Assembly: GCA_958430865.1 (NCBI GenBank)
Contig: CAUDNR010004067.1
Coordinates: 108,314 to 167,821 of the forward strand
Source of the DNA: Entrophospora sp. SA101
Lineage: Eukaryota; Glomeromycota; Glomeromycetes; Entrophosporales; Entrophosporaceae
Direction of reading: 5' to 3'
DNA: 59,508 nucleotides
The number at the start of each line of letters is the position of its first letter. Position 1 is the stretch's first letter. The notes below the pieces were generated by a model. It made no database searches and was not told the DNA's origin. It saw only the letters and a list, made by a program, of their open reading frames with translations. This document shows positions 30,021 through 43,915 of the stretch, piece by piece. Both the position numbers and the translations under genes were made by a program.

Positions 30021-31130
30021 AAACTTTTAACAATGTGTGTCTACCCAGATCTCTGGGATTCACAAAATAAATTATTTTTCCTGATTATCAAATTATGGTT
30101 TCTTATGGATAATAAATCTGATGTTAATTGCAGGAGTCAGATTTAATTAAAGTTTCCTATAACAAACTTTGCACAACGGGCGTTTACACACCGCCCCATT
30201 CCTATGAAATTTTTTCCACAGGTGAGACACTTGCAATTTTGAAGCCTTTGGACAAAACTTTCCCTATCTTCTCCTCAGACCAGGCTGGATGTTGTCATAT
30301 GAGCATTGATGATTGGCATTTGTGTGACGATTGCTTTGAGTCCCTGGTTGCTATTTTTATTGGTGGCACGCCTACTCACCAACAACCCTGCCCCCATTTA
30401 AAAAATCAAATTCAGTTGATCAAATAAAAATTAAAGACAAACAGAAAATTTGGGAATGATTAATTTATATAATATACCAAACGAAATTTGATCCATTTTG
30501 TTTTACGGCTTTCCTCCTAACATCAGGGCTACCAACCTGTTCTGAATTTGCGACTTCTTGTGCTTGAAACGAGTTGCAGATCCTCGTTGCTTTGATGCTT
30601 ATGCTTGGTTGCAGAGCCATCCTTAGGATTGTTGCGGGAAAACTTTTGGGCTTTCTCACTGGTCTGGTGCTGTGAGGGAAGATTAGTGAAAAAGTCATTG
30701 ACGATGATGAACCCTTTGATAAACCCCAGAGCCATGCCCCCCACCCCTGGAACTCAGCGCATCATTGTATTCATCGCAGGGTGCAGGTCAGATTAGCCTT
30801 TTGAACATAAGGAAAATCTGAGAGAATGACTGTAAAGTGTTTCAAGGTAGCATACACTTGCTAATTTTCCGATAATTAAACATTGCATATCGCAATGTTT
30901 CATATTCAATGGTGTGCTGTAATTAAATATTTATAATAATATTAATATTATTACTGATTACGACTACAAAAGGCAAAATACCATTCATTTACCATCTTCG
31001 TAAGGATCTTATTTCCCAGCAAGAGTTGTTCCGCATTTTGGTTTCAATTAAAATATTTATAAACTAAAGAACATACATATCATCAATACAAGTAAAAAAA
31101 AAGTACCTCTGGTTAATTATTATCGTGCCA
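30021..31130. repeat. repeat family R1 copy in left arm
   Basis: Aligns with 42260-43700 and partly with 6605-7420 and 55060-55260: CTACCCAGATCTCTGGGATTC, CCTGACCTGCACCC-type words, and the tail AAAAAAAAAGTACCTCTGG at 31095. It precedes the CCGACAA MITE. The mirrored copy is 37861-38970. Confidence 0.7.
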
Positions 31131-31274
31131 ACAAAATCTCGCTCGTCTTAAGGTTTTCTCAGCTGGGCACAACCGATAGCGAAATAACATCGTTTTGTCA
31201 TTGAAAATATATATTGTTTTAAAATAAAACAAAGATTCCATATCGGGGCTTTATTCGTAATACAAATTCTTATT

Positions 31275-31465
31275 CGACGTATTACTTTGCCGACAATCAC
31301 TTTGCCGACAATCATTTTGCCGACAGTCATTTACCGACAACACGTGGCGCGCCATTTTAGCATTTTATTAGTTGCTTGATTATGTGGAGATTAAATGTAA
31401 ACCCCGAGTTGTCGGTAAAATGAACTGTCGGTAAAATGATTGTCGGTAAAAATGAATGCCTCCCC
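31275..31465. mobile_element. CCGACAA-family MITE with multiplied end motif
   Basis: Same family as 5385-5500, sharing CGTATTACTTT(A/G)CCGACAA on the left, TTATTAGTTGCTTGATTATG in the core and AATGAATGCCTCCC on the right. Here the end motif is repeated: four CCGACA words on the left, spaced 15-16 bp, and three TGTCGGTAAAA words on the right. Mirrored at 37526-37716. Confidence 0.75.
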
Positions 31466-31912
31466 TTTAAAAATTCGAATTAAAAAATCTATTCGATCTA
31501 TATATTAAAATTATTCATTATAACAAGATAATATAAACAATAATTATATTTATAATCTATATTACTACTATAATTGCTAGTATTATGACTTAAGGAAAAT
31601 GTTAGCTACTACTAATTATTATTATCACTATATTCAAGGACTAAGGAAAAATAGATTGATAAAAAAATTTTAATTGGATTGAATTATTCGAACTATTATT
31701 ATTAATTTTATTACCAAGATAATGATTTAATGCTAATTGGTTTGTTGAAGAATCATTCCTTACACGTTTAATTGATCTAACAGAAGTAGAAGTTCCTGAA
31801 AAAATATTATCAGTATTGCCTAAAACAATTGATAAAAATATAGATAGAAACATGTAAATAAATATATATGTACATATATAAAAAAGAAAACTCTCATGTA
31901 TTAAATTGGTAA

Positions 31913-32991
31913 ATATTTACTAGATCTTTTTGTGATTCTTTTTGTTTGATTATTTCAAGATGATTTTCTACAAATTCAATTTTATCAGAATAGCAAGCTT
32001 TAAAATTTTCACAATCTAACAAGTGTTTCCCGATGCTGTTCACAGTGTTTGAAATTTATATAAAACTTCACAATAATTTTATCAAATTCTTGGAATTCAT
32101 CTTTCTTTATGCTTTTTGGTGATAAAGCGATCACTGTTTTTGCCTCAACATCCTCAGATTTATGACACCATCTGCTAGGTACCATGTTTCACTAGATCTG
32201 AAGCAATCTGAGAAGTCATGTGAACTTCCAACATCAATTCCACCTTTATCAAAGCAATAGAATTTCTGACTTTTCTTGTAATATTTTCACATTCATACAA
32301 TAGTCGGATCAAGAAATAAACCAAAAAGCACGATTTACCTACACCTGATGTTCCAGTGACAATGAACTTATGACAGGAACCAGTTGATGAATTATTGATC
32401 AATAGATGATAAATGTCCTTGTATTCTTCTCTCACATATAATGCTGGCCTATTAATAACTGGGAACGATCTGTCATTAGGGCTCTTTATAATATTTTGTA
32501 AATTCATTTCTGAGATTTCCCCCAATTCTTCAGGTTTTTAAAAAAGGATACACAAAATGTAAAAGTTAAGAGCCAAATATGATAAACTTGATAAAATATT
32601 TGCAAATAATTGTTACCTTTATCTTGTGATAACTTCAATTGCTTCACTAAATCAATGATATTCTCGAATGATGGATCTGATAAGTGAAGAAAGATAATAA
32701 AAAAATTGTTAGCTCACAACACATTCTACACATCCTTGTTATTAAAGCTTACCTATCAATTTTTCTTTGTTGGGTTTAGTAGAAAGAGTTCGTTTTTCTG
32801 GTAGATTCCCTTTACCTTCAATCTAAATATGTATTAGAAAATTTGATTTAATTGATGAAGAGTGAACCTTTTAACTATATATATATGAATATAGTGTAAA
32901 AGATATTTGTAAAAAAGCAATCAATAATATGAATGTATTTAAAAACAAACCTGCCCTCTAAGTCGAATTATTTCTTTACTTAAATCATTAG
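31913..32991 (-). pseudogene. P-loop NTPase, crinkler-like, broken (left arm copy)
   Basis: Minus strand. Candidate exons encode IEGKGNLPEKRTLSTKPNKE, then DPSFENIIDLVKQLKLSQDK, then 32525-32175 encoding RSFPVINRPALYVREEYKDI and KFIVTGTSGVGKSCFLVYFL. GTSGVGKS is a clear Walker A motif. The RPALYVREEYKDIY block before it is the arrangement seen in crinkler-type proteins of arbuscular mycorrhizal fungi. After the helix that follows Walker A the frame breaks: ETWYLADGVINLR continues in another frame and stops follow. No Walker B or effector domain is seen. The identical copy is at 36000-37078. Confidence 0.55.
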
Positions 32992-33139
32992 ATCATTTCT
33001 TCAATTAGTACGATTCAATTCGTAATTTATCTGATATGATTTTGAATTTTTAATATATCTCGTTCTCCATTTACTTCATTCAATACGGTTTTAATTTTAT
33101 CATTGTCTACACTATTTTAAAAAAAATCAAAATTTATTA

Positions 33140-33960
33140 CTAGAACTAGAGTGACGACGAGTGGTGATAACCACCACCATCCTTAAAACACTTATGCCTT
33201 TGCTTCTCCTTTATTGTCCTCTCTGTTTCTTTTATTTTTGTTTTGTTTATACATTTTGATTAAAAGAAAAAATAAAAATTAGTTAAAAAAACACACGTAA
33301 ATAAAATAAATTATTATTATTGGCACTTGGTGTCGCACAAGGACTGTTTTTGGGACAGACGCGATATTTTTCTTTTTGGAAAAACAATCTTATTTTGACA
33401 AGATGACAAAACGTGGTTCTCCTAAAGAAGACGTGTTAATGACAGAGGTACACTTTTTTTTTAATTTGCATTGTCTTTTTTGGTTATTATAAATATTATA
33501 ATTGAAATCAAAACGTGGAGCATATCATTGCTGGGTAATTATAAGATCCTTGTCAAGATGACAACGAATGAACGATTGGCATTTTGCTTTGCATAATCAA
33601 TAATATTAATATTATTGATAATAAATAATTACAAGATGTCAAGGCAGCACAACTGAAACAATTCAATATGCAATGTTTGATTATCGAAAATTGGCAGATG
33701 TTGAAGCACACACACTGCCTTGAACACTTTACAGTCATTCTCACGTATTCCTTGTGTACACAAGGCTAATATGACTTGCGACCCCTCGATGTTACAATGA
33801 TGCAACTGAATTCCAGAGGAAGGACGCAAAGCCCTGGAGTTTAGCAAGACTGCGCCAATTGTTAATGACACTTTCACTAATCTTCCCTCACAGCACAGCA
33901 TAGTGTACATTTGATTTCATTGGCTAAATTATGTGACGATCTCCCTTCCAGATATCATGC
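33140..33960. repeat. repeat family R1 unit, left arm
   Basis: One unit of about 820 bp, from CTAGAGTGACGACGAGTGG to CACTATGCTGTG-type sequence. Shared with 43215-43915 (inverted) and 55513-56190. Common words: TTTACAGTCATTCTCACGTA, CAAGATGTCAAGGCAGCACA, TTGATTATCGAAAATTGGCA. It is the mirror of 35031-35851. Confidence 0.75.
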
Positions 33961-34245
33961 AAAAAATAAAGTCACATGTTTCACAACATAAAAAAGATCA
34001 ATGATCGATTTTGTCACATGTGATAAAACGAATGTCCACTATGCTCCACATAATAACATATTGGAAATGTTAGTACTAAGTAAAGTATGTCAAAATTGCG
34101 GATGCCGACGGATGCAGCTGGAATTAAGTTAAAAAAACATTAAAGAATATCTCTGTAAAGTTACAGTACGTGTTACATATCAACATATACCCATTTTAAT
34201 TGAGCGCACAGTTTTCTTACTTTAAAAATTACGTTACACAGCATA

Positions 34246-34490
34246 AAACTTGGTGCAACATTCGAATGTCCACCATGCTATAGTTACTTACGTTCAAAAA
34301 ATGAAGATCTTTTGACAAACCCTAATTTAACCTACGAAAATGTTGCTAGGTTTGCATGTGCTACAATGACAGATTGTACAAAAGTTCGTTTAAAATTATC
34401 ATATTCACATTCAAAACATTTGCACAAAGTTTCAAATATAATGAGATTAGATAATGCACATGAAAATATTAATACTAATACTGCAAATCA
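34246..34490 (+). pseudogene. open frame running into the sequence gap
   Basis: From 34246 the frame reads KLGATFECPPCYSYLRSKNE, DLLTNPNLTYENVARFACAT, MTDCTKVRLKLSYSHSKHLH and so on with no stop up to the Ns at 34491. It has balanced composition and a C-x2-C pair. It is cut by the gap, so its true length is unknown. No family recognised. The mirror copy (34501-34745, minus) enters the gap from the other side. Confidence 0.4.
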
Positions 34491-34500
34491 NNNNNNNNNN
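34491..34500. other. assembly gap of ten Ns at the palindrome centre
   Basis: Ten Ns separate the two arms, which begin with perfectly complementary sequence on either side. Ten is a generic scaffold filler, so the true centre and spacing are unknown. Confidence 0.99.
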
Positions 34501-34745
34501 TGATTTGCAGTATTAGTATTAATATTTTCATGTGCATTATCTAATCTCATTATATTTGAAACTTTGTGCAAATGTTTTGAATGTGAATATGATAATTTTA
34601 AACGAACTTTTGTACAATCTGTCATTGTAGCACATGCAAACCTAGCAACATTTTCGTAGGTTAAATTAGGGTTTGTCAAAAGATCTTCATTTTTTGAACG
34701 TAAGTAACTATAGCATGGTGGACATTCGAATGTTGCACCAAGTTT
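34501..34745 (-). pseudogene. mirror copy of the central open frame
   Basis: Identical in translation to 34246-34490, entering the gap from the right. If the Ns are artificial the two are one gene represented twice. Confidence 0.4.
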
Positions 34746-35030
34746 TATGCTGTGTAACGTAATTTTTAAAGTAAGAAAACTGTGCGCTCAATTAAAATGG
34801 GTATATGTTGATATGTAACACGTACTGTAACTTTACAGAGATATTCTTTAATGTTTTTTTAACTTAATTCCAGCTGCATCCGTCGGCATCCGCAATTTTG
34901 ACATACTTTACTTAGTACTAACATTTCCAATATGTTATTATGTGGAGCATAGTGGACATTCGTTTTATCACATGTGACAAAATCGATCATTGATCTTTTT
35001 TATGTTGTGAAACATGTGACTTTATTTTTT

Positions 35031-35851
35031 GCATGATATCTGGAAGGGAGATCGTCACATAATTTAGCCAATGAAATCAAATGTACACTATGCTGTGCTG
35101 TGAGGGAAGATTAGTGAAAGTGTCATTAACAATTGGCGCAGTCTTGCTAAACTCCAGGGCTTTGCGTCCTTCCTCTGGAATTCAGTTGCATCATTGTAAC
35201 ATCGAGGGGTCGCAAGTCATATTAGCCTTGTGTACACAAGGAATACGTGAGAATGACTGTAAAGTGTTCAAGGCAGTGTGTGTGCTTCAACATCTGCCAA
35301 TTTTCGATAATCAAACATTGCATATTGAATTGTTTCAGTTGTGCTGCCTTGACATCTTGTAATTATTTATTATCAATAATATTAATATTATTGATTATGC
35401 AAAGCAAAATGCCAATCGTTCATTCGTTGTCATCTTGACAAGGATCTTATAATTACCCAGCAATGATATGCTCCACGTTTTGATTTCAATTATAATATTT
35501 ATAATAACCAAAAAAGACAATGCAAATTAAAAAAAAAGTGTACCTCTGTCATTAACACGTCTTCTTTAGGAGAACCACGTTTTGTCATCTTGTCAAAATA
35601 AGATTGTTTTTCCAAAAAGAAAAATATCGCGTCTGTCCCAAAAACAGTCCTTGTGCGACACCAAGTGCCAATAATAATAATTTATTTTATTTACGTGTGT
35701 TTTTTTAACTAATTTTTATTTTTTCTTTTAATCAAAATGTATAAACAAAACAAAAATAAAAGAAACAGAGAGGACAATAAAGGAGAAGCAAAGGCATAAG
35801 TGTTTTAAGGATGGTGGTGGTTATCACCACTCGTCGTCACTCTAGTTCTAG
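35031..35851. repeat. repeat family R1 unit, right arm
   Basis: Mirror of 33140-33960. Confidence 0.75.
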
Positions 35852-35999
35852 TAATAAATTTTGATTTTTTTTAAAATAGTGTAGACAATGATAAAATTAA
35901 AACCGTATTGAATGAAGTAAATGGAGAACGAGATATATTAAAAATTCAAAATCATATCAGATAAATTACGAATTGAATCGTACTAATTGAAGAAATGAT

Positions 36000-37078
36000 C
36001 TAATGATTTAAGTAAAGAAATAATTCGACTTAGAGGGCAGGTTTGTTTTTAAATACATTCATATTATTGATTGCTTTTTTACAAATATCTTTTACACTAT
36101 ATTCATATATATATAGTTAAAAGGTTCACTCTTCATCAATTAAATCAAATTTTCTAATACATATTTAGATTGAAGGTAAAGGGAATCTACCAGAAAAACG
36201 AACTCTTTCTACTAAACCCAACAAAGAAAAATTGATAGGTAAGCTTTAATAACAAGGATGTGTAGAATGTGTTGTGAGCTAACAATTTTTTTATTATCTT
36301 TCTTCACTTATCAGATCCATCATTCGAGAATATCATTGATTTAGTGAAGCAATTGAAGTTATCACAAGATAAAGGTAACAATTATTTGCAAATATTTTAT
36401 CAAGTTTATCATATTTGGCTCTTAACTTTTACATTTTGTGTATCCTTTTTTAAAAACCTGAAGAATTGGGGGAAATCTCAGAAATGAATTTACAAAATAT
36501 TATAAAGAGCCCTAATGACAGATCGTTCCCAGTTATTAATAGGCCAGCATTATATGTGAGAGAAGAATACAAGGACATTTATCATCTATTGATCAATAAT
36601 TCATCAACTGGTTCCTGTCATAAGTTCATTGTCACTGGAACATCAGGTGTAGGTAAATCGTGCTTTTTGGTTTATTTCTTGATCCGACTATTGTATGAAT
36701 GTGAAAATATTACAAGAAAAGTCAGAAATTCTATTGCTTTGATAAAGGTGGAATTGATGTTGGAAGTTCACATGACTTCTCAGATTGCTTCAGATCTAGT
36801 GAAACATGGTACCTAGCAGATGGTGTCATAAATCTGAGGATGTTGAGGCAAAAACAGTGATCGCTTTATCACCAAAAAGCATAAAGAAAGATGAATTCCA
36901 AGAATTTGATAAAATTATTGTGAAGTTTTATATAAATTTCAAACACTGTGAACAGCATCGGGAAACACTTGTTAGATTGTGAAAATTTTAAAGCTTGCTA
37001 TTCTGATAAAATTGAATTTGTAGAAAATCATCTTGAAATAATCAAACAAAAAGAATCACAAAAAGATCTAGTAAATAT
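36000..37078 (+). pseudogene. P-loop NTPase, crinkler-like, broken (right arm copy)
   Basis: Identical to the left-arm copy at 31913-32991 in reverse complement. Exons at 36167-36240 and about 36315-36371, and a longer one from about 36462 containing the Walker A GTSGVGKS at about 36639-36662. The frame is lost after 36813 (GAAACATGGTACCTAG). Later remnants include KHLLDCENFKACYSDKIEF and ENHLEIIKQKESQKDL. Confidence 0.55.
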
Positions 37079-37525
37079 TTACCAATTTAATACATGAGAG
37101 TTTTCTTTTTTATATATGTACATATATATTTATTTACATGTTTCTATCTATATTTTTATCAATTGTTTTAGGCAATACTGATAATATTTTTTCAGGAACT
37201 TCTACTTCTGTTAGATCAATTAAACGTGTAAGGAATGATTCTTCAACAAACCAATTAGCATTAAATCATTATCTTGGTAATAAAATTAATAATAATAGTT
37301 CGAATAATTCAATCCAATTAAAATTTTTTTATCAATCTATTTTTCCTTAGTCCTTGAATATAGTGATAATAATAATTAGTAGTAGCTAACATTTTCCTTA
37401 AGTCATAATACTAGCAATTATAGTAGTAATATAGATTATAAATATAATTATTGTTTATATTATCTTGTTATAATGAATAATTTTAATATATAGATCGAAT
37501 AGATTTTTTAATTCGAATTTTTAAA

Positions 37526-37716
37526 GGGGAGGCATTCATTTTTACCGACAATCATTTTACCGACAGTTCATTTTACCGACAACTCGGGGTTTACATTTAA
37601 TCTCCACATAATCAAGCAACTAATAAAATGCTAAAATGGCGCGCCACGTGTTGTCGGTAAATGACTGTCGGCAAAATGATTGTCGGCAAAGTGATTGTCG
37701 GCAAAGTAATACGTCG
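37526..37716. mobile_element. CCGACAA-family MITE, right arm copy
   Basis: Mirror of 31275-31465. Confidence 0.75.
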
Positions 37717-37860
37717 AATAAGAATTTGTATTACGAATAAAGCCCCGATATGGAATCTTTGTTTTATTTTAAAACAATATATATTTTCAATGACAAAACG
37801 ATGTTATTTCGCTATCGGTTGTGCCCAGCTGAGAAAACCTTAAGACGAGCGAGATTTTGT

Positions 37861-38970
37861 TGGCACGATAATAATTAACCAGAGGTACTTTTTTTTTACT
37901 TGTATTGATGATATGTATGTTCTTTAGTTTATAAATATTTTAATTGAAACCAAAATGCGGAACAACTCTTGCTGGGAAATAAGATCCTTACGAAGATGGT
38001 AAATGAATGGTATTTTGCCTTTTGTAGTCGTAATCAGTAATAATATTAATATTATTATAAATATTTAATTACAGCACACCATTGAATATGAAACATTGCG
38101 ATATGCAATGTTTAATTATCGGAAAATTAGCAAGTGTATGCTACCTTGAAACACTTTACAGTCATTCTCTCAGATTTTCCTTATGTTCAAAAGGCTAATC
38201 TGACCTGCACCCTGCGATGAATACAATGATGCGCTGAGTTCCAGGGGTGGGGGGCATGGCTCTGGGGTTTATCAAAGGGTTCATCATCGTCAATGACTTT
38301 TTCACTAATCTTCCCTCACAGCACCAGACCAGTGAGAAAGCCCAAAAGTTTTCCCGCAACAATCCTAAGGATGGCTCTGCAACCAAGCATAAGCATCAAA
38401 GCAACGAGGATCTGCAACTCGTTTCAAGCACAAGAAGTCGCAAATTCAGAACAGGTTGGTAGCCCTGATGTTAGGAGGAAAGCCGTAAAACAAAATGGAT
38501 CAAATTTCGTTTGGTATATTATATAAATTAATCATTCCCAAATTTTCTGTTTGTCTTTAATTTTTATTTGATCAACTGAATTTGATTTTTTAAATGGGGG
38601 CAGGGTTGTTGGTGAGTAGGCGTGCCACCAATAAAAATAGCAACCAGGGACTCAAAGCAATCGTCACACAAATGCCAATCATCAATGCTCATATGACAAC
38701 ATCCAGCCTGGTCTGAGGAGAAGATAGGGAAAGTTTTGTCCAAAGGCTTCAAAATTGCAAGTGTCTCACCTGTGGAAAAAATTTCATAGGAATGGGGCGG
38801 TGTGTAAACGCCCGTTGTGCAAAGTTTGTTATAGGAAACTTTAATTAAATCTGACTCCTGCAATTAACATCAGATTTATTATCCATAAGAAACCATAATT
38901 TGATAATCAGGAAAAATAATTTATTTTGTGAATCCCAGAGATCTGGGTAGACACACATTGTTAAAAGTTT
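37861..38970. repeat. repeat family R1 copy in right arm
   Basis: Mirror of 30021-31130. Confidence 0.7.
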
Positions 38971-39461: not shown

Positions 39462-40423
39462 TAACATATTAAAATAAGTTCCTTGGCAAAGGAGTGTAGT
39501 GAAAAAGGACAGGGGACGGATTTCTGCGCCTTCACCACGCCACACCTGTTACCATCCTTTTCTAGTATTAATGGGCCTTGAAAAGGACGGTGTGTTGAAC
39601 CCATCCCCAGTATCCCAAGAGAAATTGGGAAAATTTGGTCAACCTCCCCATGAAAAATAATTATGACCTAGCTTATCATCATTAATAATCAAAATGAGAA
39701 AAGACAATTTAAAAAGCAAACAATAAATGAAATAATAACAAGTTAATAAAAAATTGACTACCTTTACCAATGAATTTTTCCACACATTGTTGATCATAAA
39801 CAGAAAATGTTATTATTGCTTTAACAAATCATGTGTAGTGATTTATATTTTGTTTACTTTTTATAGATGTAAAATTTACTTAATTTATTTGAGATAATCA
39901 ATTAAATATCTTCTGAATAGATTATAACAATAAGGTTAATTATAATTTATTTATATTTTTATTATTTATATTATTATGTATTTTTAACATAAAAAGGATT
40001 ATCCTCTAAGAAATAAAGGTAATTTGTATTTTTACAATAATTAAAGTACCTGTTCAAAAATACTTATAATTTATCTTGTTGAAAAGTAATTCTTACAAAT
40101 GTATAAAAATTATATTTTTCAAAATAATCAATTTTTGAAACTTAAAAATTAATTTGATAATGATAATTACATTAAGGTAAATAACTTGAATTGTAAAATG
40201 CAAACTACAAGAGCAAAGAAAAATGGAACTCTAAATTAACATAAAAAATTTTTAAATTGCATACAAACCTAATCCCTTTCAATAAGTGCACCAATGGATT
40301 CAAATAATTGCTTGATTGACCTTGGAACATGTAATGGTGTGATTGTTCCAGCCTTGGATTCCATGCAATCACTCTGCAATTTTTTTATCTTGTATTTTTT
40401 CTTTATATATCTTGGTTAAAATA

Positions 40424-40431
40424 AAAAATAA
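40424..40431. repeat. 8-bp target site duplication, left
   Basis: AAAAATAA, directly before the left inverted repeat. Identical to 42106-42113. Confidence 0.85.
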
Positions 40432-40453
40432 GGGAACTATATACAATTTTAAA

Positions 40454-40582
40454 CTACTTCCCTCCTTTCCTCTTTTTCCTAGGTGGAGAATTTAACAAGG
40501 CTTTTATTACTTTGTCAAATTCCTCTTGGCTTACTGGCTGAATATCATTGTCCTTTTGCTTTCTATTTAGTTTTCTTGTCAT
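40454..40582 (-). CDS. 42-aa passenger protein of the IS, basic tail
   Basis: ATG at 40582, TAG at 40454. Reads MTRKLNRKQKDNDIQPVSQE then EFDKVIKALLNSPPRKKRKG-GK. A short soluble helical protein with a VSQEEFDKVIKALLNSPP core and a basic C terminus. That pattern resembles small bacterial ORFs of the VSxEEFDxxL type often found near mobile genes or toxin-antitoxin loci, but I cannot assign a role. It needs no UGA codon. It is divergent from the 87-aa gene, with 70 bp between the starts holding AT-rich promoter-like sequence (TATACTATATATAAT). Confidence 0.6.
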   Translation of the reverse strand: MTRKLNRKQKDNDIQPVSQEEFDKVIKALLNSPPRKKRKGGK

Positions 40583-40652
40583 ATAAATAGTTTTTATACT
40601 CTATACTATATATAATTCGTGTATAGGAAAAAAATGCTAAAATTATAATATT

Positions 40653-40916
40653 ATGTTAATAGATATTTTTGCCTCATTATTTATAGTAGCAATATTCCCT
40701 GAAAATGTTAGGTTTTTAGTATGGGTTCTTTTTTGACCCCTTATTATTGGTTATTGGATATATAGTTTAGTTAGATTAGGTAAAAATAAAAGTAAAGGTG
40801 GAATGTGAGCCATATTGGCGGTTGGTCTTTTCTTGTCTTTCTTTTTCGCTTGTATAGCCAGTATGTTTATTAGTAGTGATAAGGATGATACAGAGAGAGA
40901 GAGAGAGCAGAATTAG
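40653..40916 (+). CDS. 87-aa passenger membrane protein, two UGA-Trp codons
   Basis: ATG at 40653, TAG at 40914. Open only with UGA=Trp, at residues 28 (VLFWPLIIG) and 52 (GGMWAILAV). Both are in hydrophobic stretches where Trp is natural. Two or three membrane helices (about 5-24, 25-40 and 50-72) and an acidic tail SSDKDDTEREREQN. It is followed after 6 bp by the 78-aa gene, so the two look like one transcription unit. No family recognised. A small multi-pass membrane protein is all that can be said. In the standard nuclear code it would stop after 27 residues. Confidence 0.7.
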
Positions 40917-40922
40917 AAAATT

Positions 40923-41159
40923 ATGGAAAAGAAACAAATTAAACAAAAGAGAGGTATTGATTGCTGTCATATCGCAATTGCCTTATGCTTTGTAATTATT
41001 GTCTGTTTTGGCATGTTTTTTAATTATAGTGCTAAATTAAGTAAAGATAGGGTGGAAATTACTAAACTAACTCACCGAGCCGATGAGGAGCAAAAAGAGA
41101 TAGATGATTTAAGAAAAGAAATTCAAGAGTTAAAGAAAAAGTTAGAAAGTAGAAGTTAA
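40923..41159 (+). CDS. 78-aa passenger protein: one membrane helix plus coiled coil
   Basis: ATG at 40923, TAA at 41157. A basic N terminus (MEKKQIKQKRG), a membrane helix at about 15-35 (IAIALCFVIIVCFGMFF), then a heptad-rich coiled coil at about 45-78 (EEQKEIDDLRKEIQELKKKL). It needs no UGA. A GAGAGAGAGAG stretch 10-20 bp upstream could serve as a purine-rich ribosome site. Its last 18 bp overlap the 3' end of the convergent transposase gene. Similar anchor-plus-coil proteins are common in Mollicutes. Function unknown. Confidence 0.7.
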   Translation: MEKKQIKQKRGIDCCHIAIALCFVIIVCFGMFFNYSAKLSKDRVEITKLTHRADEEQKEIDDLRKEIQELKKKLESRS

Positions 41160-42065
41160 CTGACTATAACTTGAAACTTTACCTACAATTGAGGAAAGCA
41201 CTAAATCAAATCTTTCCTGCTCGCTACATTTGCGGGTATTAAATCTTAACACAAATTCATCTATATATTTCTGTGTATATTTTTTACTTATTCAATGATA
41301 AGTCCCATAAATACCCCTTTTTAAATGAGACCAAAAGCCTTCAATAGAATTAGTTGTAGCCTTGCCATTGACATATTGCTTAATACTGTGATTAGTTATT
41401 TCATGGTTAAAGTTTTTGTGTAAATCTTTATAAGCATGTCATTCATCAGTAAAGACATTGGAACCCTGCTTAATATTAGCCTTAATTATTGGCTCAATTA
41501 TTTCCTGTCTAGTATTCTGAACCACTTGGGCTATAAGGTTGCCATTTCTTTCTAACATGCCTAATACTGGCACTTTGTCCTTTCAACTTCTGCCCTGTGA
41601 ATTAGGAACTTTTTTATTTCAATGTCTATTTTTGTTTTTGCCTCCGATAAAGGTTTCGTCTATTTCCACAAAACCTTTTAACATGTCTTTAATAAGGTTA
41701 GTTTGTTTAAGGTTGCTTCGTAAATCATCTAGTAAATTTCAGGCTGATTTTTGACTAATATCAAGGTCTCTGGCTAATTGACAAGAGGAAACGCCCTTTT
41801 TGCGAGTAAAAAGATAAGCGGCTAAAAATCACTTTCTTAATGGTAGTTTGGTATTAGCAAAAGCGGTTCCAGTTTTCACATTAAAGAACTTTTTGGTATT
41901 TTTACACTTATACCAGTTATTAGCACACTTATAAACCTTTCCATTAGGACAATAAGGAGAGGTTGGCAGTTTTCCATCTCATCTATGTTTTTCTAAATAG
42001 TTAATAATAGTTTGTTCGTTGGGAAAGACCGCTAATAATTGGGATATACTTTTAAAATTAAACAT
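41142..42065 (-). CDS. IS1595-family (ISXO2-like) DDE transposase, 307 aa, seven UGA-Trp codons
   Basis: ATG at 42065, TAA at 41142; 307 aa, a normal length for the family. Read with UGA=Trp it is uninterrupted. The UGAs fall at residues 29, 79, 109, 149, 161, 209 and 258. Two Trp codons are UGG. N-terminal remnant zinc-ribbon (CPNGKVYKCANNWYKCKN), then FFNVKTGTAFANTKLPLRKW and FLAAYLFTRKKGVSSCQLAR. Catalytic core: FVEIDETFIGGKNKN with D136, VFTDEWHAYKDL with D207, and GKATTNSIEGFWSHLKRGIY with N239/E242 as third ligand. It ends KKYTQKYIDEFVLRFNTRK. RKW, SAW and DEW are positions where relatives have Trp. It catalyses cut-and-paste movement of the element. In nuclear translation it would end after 28 residues. 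No frameshift and no UAA/UAG inside, so little decay since it left a UGA=Trp genome. Confidence 0.9.
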
Positions 42066-42086
42066 ATATGACTAGTTTTTTGGTTA

Positions 42087-42105
42087 AAGCTTGTATATAA
42101 TTGCC
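42087..42105 (-). repeat. right inverted repeat of the IS
   Basis: AAGCTTGTATATAATTGCC. Its reverse complement matches 40432-40450 at 14 of 19 positions, including the TATATACAA core. Confidence 0.8.
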
Positions 42106-42113
42106 AAAAATAA
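42106..42113. repeat. 8-bp target site duplication, right
   Basis: AAAAATAA, directly after the right inverted repeat. Identical to 40424-40431. Confidence 0.85.
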
Positions 42114-42179
42114 AATAAGATACAATATTGCTATTTAATACTTTCCTCATGTGTGAATTCCTTTGTCTCTATATTCATC

Positions 42180-43915
42180 ACAATTATTATTCAATACATT
42201 TGATATCATCATTGACATAACAAACAATTGCATCACCCAGGTAATAAATAACATCAAGGCCATGCATAAATGAAACTTTTAATAATGTGTGTCTACCCAG
42301 ATCTCTGGGGTTCACAATAATAAATTACTCTTCCTGATTATCAATCATGGTTGCTCATGAATAATAAATCTGATGTTGATCACAGGTGTCAGATTTAATT
42401 AAAATTTTCCTGTCACAAACATGCAAATACCCTTTATAACCATGGGAATTTTTTCCTAAGGGTAAAGTCCATCACATGTTGGAAGACTTTGGACAAAACC
42501 TTTACTTGTCTCCTCCTCTGACCAGGCTTGCTGTTAGCAAATTGGCATTGATTGCTGATAGCTGGTGCCTGTGTGGATGATTGTGTTATACCTCTTCAGT
42601 ATAAAGTTGGCACTTGCAACTGGTTTGAAAGTTCAGCAACTCAGGAGGCTATAACACAGGTTATTGTTTTGGATTCTCCCTGAATTTGGAGTTTTGAGTC
42701 CTGGGTAGTTGTCTTTTTGGTGGCATGCATACTCACCAACAATCCTACCCCCATTTAAATAACAAGTTCAGTTGGTCAAATAAAAATTAAAGAAAAACAG
42801 AGTATTTATGAAAATGGTTAATTTATAACATACCAAAATATGAACCATTTTATGACTTTTTCCTTGTTGACCATGTTGCTGACAAAGATGTATATAATCA
42901 TGTGATAATTTTAACCTGCAGGACAGGGGACTGATTGGGCAAAAACCCCGTTGAGTCCCCTACCCAAAATTATAAATTGGTTAGTATCAGAGAAACAGAG
43001 AATTTACGAAAATTATTATACAAACAAACACTATTTTACAACTTTCCTCTTAACATCAGAGCCCAAATGCAATTTCAGGGTCACAAACCCTGCTCTGAAT
43101 TGTGACCTCCTGTGCTTGAACGAGCTGCAAATTCTCTTAATATTCTTCCAGAGTTGTGACAGCTTGGTCACAGAGCCACCCTTACCCTAGAGTAGGATCG
43201 TTGCAGGCAACTTTTCGGTCAGCATTCCAGCAGCCATCTCTGGTCTGGGAAGATTAGTGGAAGCATCATTGACAATTGATGCAGTCTCAGTAAATTCCAA
43301 AGCCACGCAATACCCTTGGAATTCTGTTGCATCGTTGTATTATCGATCAATCAGGTCAGATTGGCCTTTTGAACACGAGGAAGATGTGAGAGAATAGCTG
43401 TAATGTGTTCAAGATAGCATGCGTGCTTCAACACTTGCCAATTTCCGATAATCAACTTCGCATACTTGAATTGTTTCTTTTTAAATGGTGTGCTGCCTTG
43501 ACATCTTGTAAATAAAATTAGTATTATTAACGATTACGAAAAGAAAAATACACAATCTTGATAAGAATCTTGTAAAATTACCCAGAAATGATCTGCTCCG
43601 TGTCTTGATTTCCAATTAAAATATTTATATAAAATAAAGACACCACATTATATCAATACAAATAAAAAAAAAGTACCTCTGGTTAGTTATTAACACGTAT
43701 TCCCAAACCAAACCAAACAACAACACTCACGTTTTGTCACCTTGGACTTTGTCAAAAAATAAAAAAAACCAATAGGATAAATAATTAATGCGTACGCGTC
43801 GATCAAATCACAAACTTCTTTTTTTTATAAACATGCCTCGCCAGCAATATATGGATAAGTGTTTTAAGAATGGTGGAGGTGGTTATCGCCCGCCACTTGT
43901 CGTTACTCTAGTTTT
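42180..43915. repeat. repeat family R1, fullest diverged copy
   Basis: Continues repeat unit A copy 2 and aligns to 29935-31130 (CACCCAGGTAATAAATAACA, CTACCCAGATCTCTGGGG). From 43215 to 43915 it aligns to the 820-bp unit at 35080-35851, ending CTTGTCGTTACTCTAGTTTT. Small extra segments occur, for example at 42590-42700. Coding remnants are unreadable. Confidence 0.65.

Follow-up and report, generated by a model that had tools for sequence, protein, structure and literature searches.

A UGA-coded IS1595-family transposon in a fungal dispersed repeat of Entrophospora sp. SA101: a probable endobacterial insertion in nuclear DNA

How could a long bacterial-type gene that a fungal nucleus would be unable to read come to lie in a fungal contig? 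The window analysed here is the whole stretch of 59,508 nucleotides from Entrophospora sp. SA101 (contig CAUDNR010004067.1, positions 108,314 to 167,821); its contig has 167,821 bases in an assembly of 101 Mb. An earlier note, made from the letters alone, had proposed that the window holds an IS1595-type transposase gene that is open only if UGA means tryptophan. That this gene is part of a complete element transposed into fungal DNA was absent from the earlier note. We consider it highly probable that the element, a complete transposon of the IS1595 family, comes from a mycoplasma-type endobacterium and was inserted by DDE transposition into a dispersed repeat of a fungal nuclear contig.

The transposase frame and its genetic code

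The transposase frame runs on the minus strand from 42065 to 41142. The coordinates of the earlier note hold, and the strand, which it did not give, is minus. The frame spans 307 codons with seven in-frame UGA (residues 29, 79, 109, 149, 161, 209 and 258), exactly where they had been placed, and it carries no UAA or UAG ahead of the terminal stop, as had also been claimed. Only two codons are UGG (residues 51 and 245). The plus strand of 41142-42065 is broken by many stops under code 4, and none of 2000 base shuffles of this interval was open across the whole frame under the same code. The assignment to IS1595-type transposases is confirmed by two models, both above cut-off: NCBIfam NF033547 (IS1595-family; 198.9 bits, cut-off 75) and Pfam PF12762 (160.8 bits, cut-off 27). 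The N-terminal zinc finger matches PF12760 at 14.2 bits, below the cut-off of 25.4. The EIDET, TDEW and SIEGFW blocks align with five Bacteroidota relatives and the DDE residues are kept; we take these residues to be the catalytic ones in the blocks. A sequence search of the PDB yielded no more than three matches, all at E 0.2, which we attribute to chance.

The earlier note had also stated that several UGA codons, among them those in RKW, SAW and DEW, sit where family members have Trp. These three motifs do carry UGA, at residues 79, 109 and 209, respectively. In five standard-code Bacteroidota relatives (L026-L030; L031, whose frame as read breaks off after 13 residues, is left out of the count), columns 29, 79, 109 and 149 are Trp in 5/5, column 209 is Trp in 3/5, and columns 161 and 258 are Trp in 0/5, so that the statement stands for most of the seven positions. 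The pattern supports a reading of UGA as Trp. The fungal nucleus uses the standard code, with UGA as a stop, under which the first in-frame UGA (residue 29) would end the protein after residue 28, just as the note had predicted. One of the seven fungal frames of the window inspected ends in UGA; these frames were listed under code 11, and the absence of inner UGA from them is by construction.

The possibility of a normal fungal gene, or of a pseudogene whose stops arose by chance, was rejected, since Trp is conserved at most UGA columns and the frame has been under selection (by the rough ratios given below). A tRNA within the element able to read UGA was also considered and rejected: ARAGORN found no tRNA or tmRNA in six loci (L001-L005 and L008).

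The element and its insertion site

The features of the element and of its target, in window coordinates, are the following:

40432..42105, minus strand: complete IS1595-family transposon, 1,674 bp (inverted repeats, 8-bp duplication, empty sites)
42106..42113, no strand: target-site duplication, copy on the side of the transposase, minus-strand sequence TTATTTTT (8/8 identical to 40424-40431)
40424..40431, no strand: target-site duplication, second copy (8/8 identical to 42106-42113)
42083..42105, minus strand: terminal inverted repeat on the upstream side of the transposase, GGCAATTATATACAAGCTTTAAC (ungapped, 18 of its first 24 bases agree with those of the other end)
40432..40454, plus strand: terminal inverted repeat of the other end, GGGAACTATATACAATTTTAAAC (exactly at the element edge)
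41142..42065, minus strand: IS1595-family transposase, 307 aa with UGA as Trp, 7 UGA and 2 UGG (NF033547, PF12762, Trp columns)
40923..41159, plus strand: passenger frame, 78 aa, 0 UGA, judged by eye to be a coiled coil with a membrane anchor (no Pfam family above cut-off)
40653..40916, plus strand: passenger frame, 87 aa, 2 UGA, hydrophobic (no Pfam family above cut-off)
40454..40582, minus strand: small frame, 42 aa, adjoining the inverted repeat (no Pfam match)
42106..42422, no strand: fungal dispersed repeat, transposase side (extent from the alignment to contig C999)
39943..40431, no strand: fungal dispersed repeat, other side (extent from the alignment to contig C999)

The element thus contains one transposase frame and three small frames (87, 78 and 42 aa), none of the latter with a Pfam family above cut-off; for the 78-aa frame, 21 Pfam matches had E values of at most 1, and each lay below its cut-off. 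Most of the stretch of the 87-aa frame, together with the right end of the element, is 79% identical at the DNA level to contig C72, and the 42-aa frame resembles, by eye, protein ends found beside the inverted repeats of the copies on contigs C1735 and C792. A short (GA)n-type remnant is seen at 40653-40913.

Code-4 frames of at least 120 aa cover 0 to 0.64 of the 3.5-kb tiles of the window versus 0.59 to 1.00 of the tiles of bacterial contigs in the same assembly, with slight overlap between the two ranges. Pfam families above cut-off were found in two of the nine fungal frames of the window that were scanned (a protein kinase and a FAD-binding oxidoreductase), and code-4 coding is low (0.11-0.54) in 16 loci of the repeat that harbors the element. 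Low code-4 coverage, fungal genes and the dispersed repeat together argue that the setting is nuclear fungal DNA. An arbuscular mycorrhizal host is suggested by the earlier note and by the endobacterial contigs of the assembly. Elsewhere in the window (30128-38863), frames are mirrored on both strands round a 10-N gap at 34491-34500, which resembles a scaffolding artefact; the window has no other N run, and this one falls outside the element.

Searching the assembly with window positions 40300-42300 gave at least 57 matches (best 40 of 492 candidates scored). Among the matches listed, the window accounts for one and relatives of the element, on C2028, C72 and C1735, for three, and the other 53 are short flank matches; the two flanks adjoin each other in many contigs, and the target repeat matches at least 34 other contigs, again among the matches listed. 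For an empty-site comparison, the flanks were joined with one copy of the 8 bp removed and aligned to the 16 repeat loci (L010-L025). The joined flanks cross the insertion joint in 15/16 loci. In 13 of them, among which is C999 (96.3% over 801 bp), the alignment extends over 100 bases to either side. The alignment reaches only 21 bases beyond the joint in L019 and L024, does not span it in L025, and runs with gaps through the AT-rich target stretch in L011. TTATTTTT flanks the element on both sides and is present in single copy in the empty sites, with the inverted repeats exactly at the edges. From the flank alignments across the joint, the element is therefore delimited to 40432-42105. Such exact ends and the 8-bp duplication point to DDE transposition as the mode of insertion. 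Contamination of the window was rejected on the grounds of the element's position within a fungal repeat, its target duplication and the empty sites.

Related copies and the source genome

Where could the element have come from? A search for its inverted repeat with up to three mismatches found 78 matches and a reversed control pattern found 75 (a total not split by mismatch), so weak matches of this kind carry little meaning; matches with 0-1 mismatch occur on the window's contig and on nine others. Code-4 frames are dense in twelve of the 14 stretches taken around element ends or relatives (0.58-0.91 of bases; C1669, C1799, C2028, C2074, C295, C780, C893, C1593, C1735, C544, C792 and C72), and the stretch of the window has 0.29. 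Six proteins from these dense contigs were compared with bacterial models: methionyl-tRNA synthetase and ribosomal L2 and L13 pass the cut-offs, DnaG (DNA primase) and gyrase B/A fall below, and one is without a match. The best PDB match of L2 is the 7ood series, which we take to be Mycoplasma pneumoniae, and that of L13 is the 5o60 series, presumably Mycobacterium, with 7ood in 14th place; the nearest entries differ, and the signal on the taxon is mixed.

Three of the bacterial-type contigs (C2028, C1735 and C792) hold full-length related transposases, whose conserved Trp columns are coded partly by UGA and partly by UGG, much as in the window. UGA is found at conserved Trp columns in 3/3 transposases on code-4-dense contigs, and the source genome would accordingly be one that reads UGA as Trp. 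A PF12762 search of the assembly, which covered exons and best candidates and which a split or missing gene could escape, found five places, all with in-frame UGA, and no IS1595 or Merlin transposase without it.

The window transposase shares 68% protein identity with that of C2028, 60% with C1735 and 57% with C792; with no copy in the assembly closer than this 68%, a direct donor did not emerge. The tree joins the window to C2028 (98/96) and separates the four assembly transposases from seven standard-code relatives (100/100), with a window branch of 0.18, shorter than the 0.29 of C2028. Outside the assembly, the best matches are Dysgonomonas (54%) and plasmids of Bacteroides and Phocaeicola (51-52%), all of them standard-code Bacteroidota, in collections from which endobacterial genomes may be absent and very near records may be omitted. 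The Mollicutes-type source suggested by the earlier note is supported: the nearest relatives found lie on contigs of the same assembly with in-frame UGA genes. The best outside matches are not Mollicutes. We regard a Mollicutes-related endobacterium of a mycorrhizal fungus as a very likely source. No relatives were found in viral contigs by the method used.

The dN/dS ratio is 0.23 between the window and C2028 and 0.16-0.28 between pairs of bacterial copies, rough figures given synonymous distances of 0.95 to 2.27, near saturation. These ratios, together with a window branch no longer than that of its sister, indicate that nearly all of the divergence was gathered where the protein was used; the window and C2028 would, roughly, have diverged while selection acted on the protein, as expected where the gene can be read. 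Random substitutions create UAA or UAG in about 4.2% of cases, i.e., one is expected per 2.6% of divergence, and since the frame has none, neutral divergence since insertion was probably below about 8%.

Four copies have both ends. Matching 8-bp flanks are found in the window and in C792, where they are a T run; those of C2028, beside an assembly gap, have three mismatches, and those of C780 have four. The C780 stretch (L067 3911-5200) has 1,290 bp between similar inverted repeats; in it lies a UGA-coded frame of 348 aa, and a transposase is absent. It is possibly a non-autonomous relative, with the mismatched 8-bp flanks noted above.

A second copy, on C679, is truncated. Its stretch has 0.61 of code-4 frames, inside the dense range, and the judgement that it is fungal rests on its flanks. 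On its left side, the element borders on a dispersed repeat, whose match to C1664 ends exactly one base short of the inverted repeat and that to C1067 six bases short. The inverted repeat has three mismatches to the search pattern, yet it equals that of C544 over 23 bases. A frame change splits the transposase into two parts, residues 2-117 and 126-191, and the gene breaks off at the start of fungal kinase DNA, with a UAG located at that joint; this kinase DNA (L072 5416 onward) is 100% identical over 585 bp to three other places, one of them on C679 itself. C679 is an older or rearranged insertion, and its right joint could also be an assembly fault. C458 holds a further transposase fragment (residues 2-69, in a stretch of 401 bases).

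Other observations were made on the bacterial-type contigs. On C780 (L067 1930-3894), a UGA-coded methionyl-tRNA synthetase contains, at residues 253-367, a stretch resembling nudix proteins (38 bits, under the model cut-off). A UGA-coded frame of 1,621 aa on C2028 (L064 4637-9499) matches gyrase B and then gyrase A, below model cut-offs, and is a possible gyrase B/A fusion with a long tail. Two contigs end in the same 77 bases at the inverted repeat and a third contains them (C1669/L062, C1799/L063 and C2028/L064), probably because near-identical copies of the element broke the assembly. Frames near bacterial copies (L002 on C1735, L003 on C2028, L004 on C792 and L066 on C295) have (GA)n tracts that encode Arg-Glu repeats (RERERERE); a tract that gained or lost bases would alter the reading frame, much as phase-variable genes do.

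Possible route into the nucleus and comparison with known systems

We hypothesize that the endobacterium, living in the fungal cytoplasm, made the transposase, and that the enzyme could have reached fungal DNA together with the transposon, for example in the form of a transposase-DNA complex, or still bound to donor DNA that lysing endobacteria set free. The element would then have inserted into the nuclear dispersed repeat, giving the 8-bp target duplication, and the nuclear copy would afterwards have been a dead passenger, recent enough for its transposase to have no stop or frameshift yet. The complete element and its target duplication in a fungal repeat suggest that it jumped into fungal DNA although the nucleus cannot read its enzyme. 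Since the standard code would stop the protein after 28 residues and no UGA-free IS1595 or Merlin transposase was found, the inserting enzyme most likely came from the bacterium; its entry into the nucleus and a single event of insertion we infer likewise.

Other routes should be weighed against insertion by a bacterium-made enzyme. Bacterial DNA already present in the nucleus might have been mobilised by a fungal transposase of the Merlin superfamily, which has a related transposase, terminal-GG inverted repeats and 8-9-bp duplications, as described for that group (PMC8101967). We consider this unlikely, given that all five PF12762 places, among exons and best candidates, carry in-frame UGA, even if a split or missing gene could have escaped. 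Marginally less likely still is an assembly or amplification chimera, in which bacterial reads were misjoined into a fungal contig. The assembly does contain both fungal and bacterial contigs, and the mirrored frames round the 10-N gap are on this very contig; however, a chimera is not expected to place its joints exactly at inverted-repeat ends with an 8-bp duplication, nor to leave an uninterrupted target elsewhere, and the sole N run lies away from the element.

The truncated copy on C679, where fungal kinase DNA begins inside the transposase, could suggest that random end joining, as with organelle fragments, brought the bacterial DNA into the nucleus with no transposition at that step. 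The exact ends and the duplication of the window copy are not expected from such a process, to which we assign a low probability, below that of a chimera. Finally, table 4 is also the mould mitochondrial code, and the frame might come from another genome with UGA as Trp, such as the fungal mitochondrion; yet its relatives share contigs with bacterial ribosomal proteins and a tRNA synthetase, and the insertion lies in the repeat found on many contigs. This last origin seems to us extremely improbable, the least credible of all.

Insertion of an endobacterial transposon by its own enzyme is thus our preferred reading. A broader proposition, that IS1595 transposons pass repeatedly from endobacteria, living or lysing, straight into host nuclei via bacterium-made transposase, is one that we put forward tentatively and rate as somewhat doubtful; a clear insertion with both ends in fungal DNA is a single case here. 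If true, it would represent endosymbiont-to-nucleus gene transfer by transposition, caught ahead of re-coding, and a present-day model for the origin of Merlin.

Passenger genes are known in some IS1595 members, and the inverted repeats of this family start with GG. The window element is like the family in its transposase domain above the curated cut-off, its single transposase gene, its terminal inverted repeats and its 8-bp duplication; it differs in being coded with UGA as Trp, in its small passenger frames, in a zinc ribbon below cut-off and in its location in eukaryotic nuclear DNA. An 8-bp target duplication and a single transposase gene are described as usual for IS1595, with a zinc finger in all groups but IS1016, in the source's account of the family (PMC8101967).

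According to the same source's treatment of Merlin, these nuclear elements are akin to IS1595, with a common catalytic domain, a terminal GG and 8-9-bp duplications, and separate invasions of eukaryotes by IS1595 elements have been proposed as the origin of Merlin, a possibility not ruled out by its authors (PMC8101967). The window element resembles Merlin in these same traits, namely the catalytic domain family, the terminal GG, the duplication length and the nuclear location (for Merlin, PMC8101967). Unlike that of Merlin, its transposase would be unreadable to a nucleus with the standard code; it groups with the bacterial-type copies from this assembly (100/100, in a tree without Merlin sequences). 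It looks like a fresh arrival and not like an established nuclear transposon. What we describe is an intact IS1595 element in nuclear DNA, in which the code marks the donor and indicates that the gene is not yet adapted to the nucleus.

An IS5-like transposon of a bdelloid rotifer is reportedly another bacterial-type insertion sequence in a eukaryotic nuclear genome. The present case differs in that the likely source lineage is co-assembled with the host and the donor is marked by the code itself.

With gene transfer between Mollicutes-related endobacteria and fungi, our case very probably shares the partners. Endobacterial contigs have been described as mixed into 19/389 Mucoromycota assemblies (PMC11423566). 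A UGA-rich frame in a fungal contig is, in light of the window, not necessarily contamination. The words transposase and insertion sequence are absent from the main text of a comparative study of endobacterial genomes (PMC10507103), and we found no report of an endobacterial insertion sequence in fungal nuclear DNA in the titles and abstract beginnings of the open-licence papers listed. As described in work on these exchanges, genes possibly moved from fungus to bacterium and very few from bacterium to fungus, and the donors of the bacterial genes in Rhizophagus irregularis are no known endobacteria (PMC5982333). Set beside such accounts, which mostly concern the reverse direction or leave the donor unnamed (PMC5982333), the window would offer a concrete case of transfer from an endobacterium to the nucleus of its host, with exact joints.
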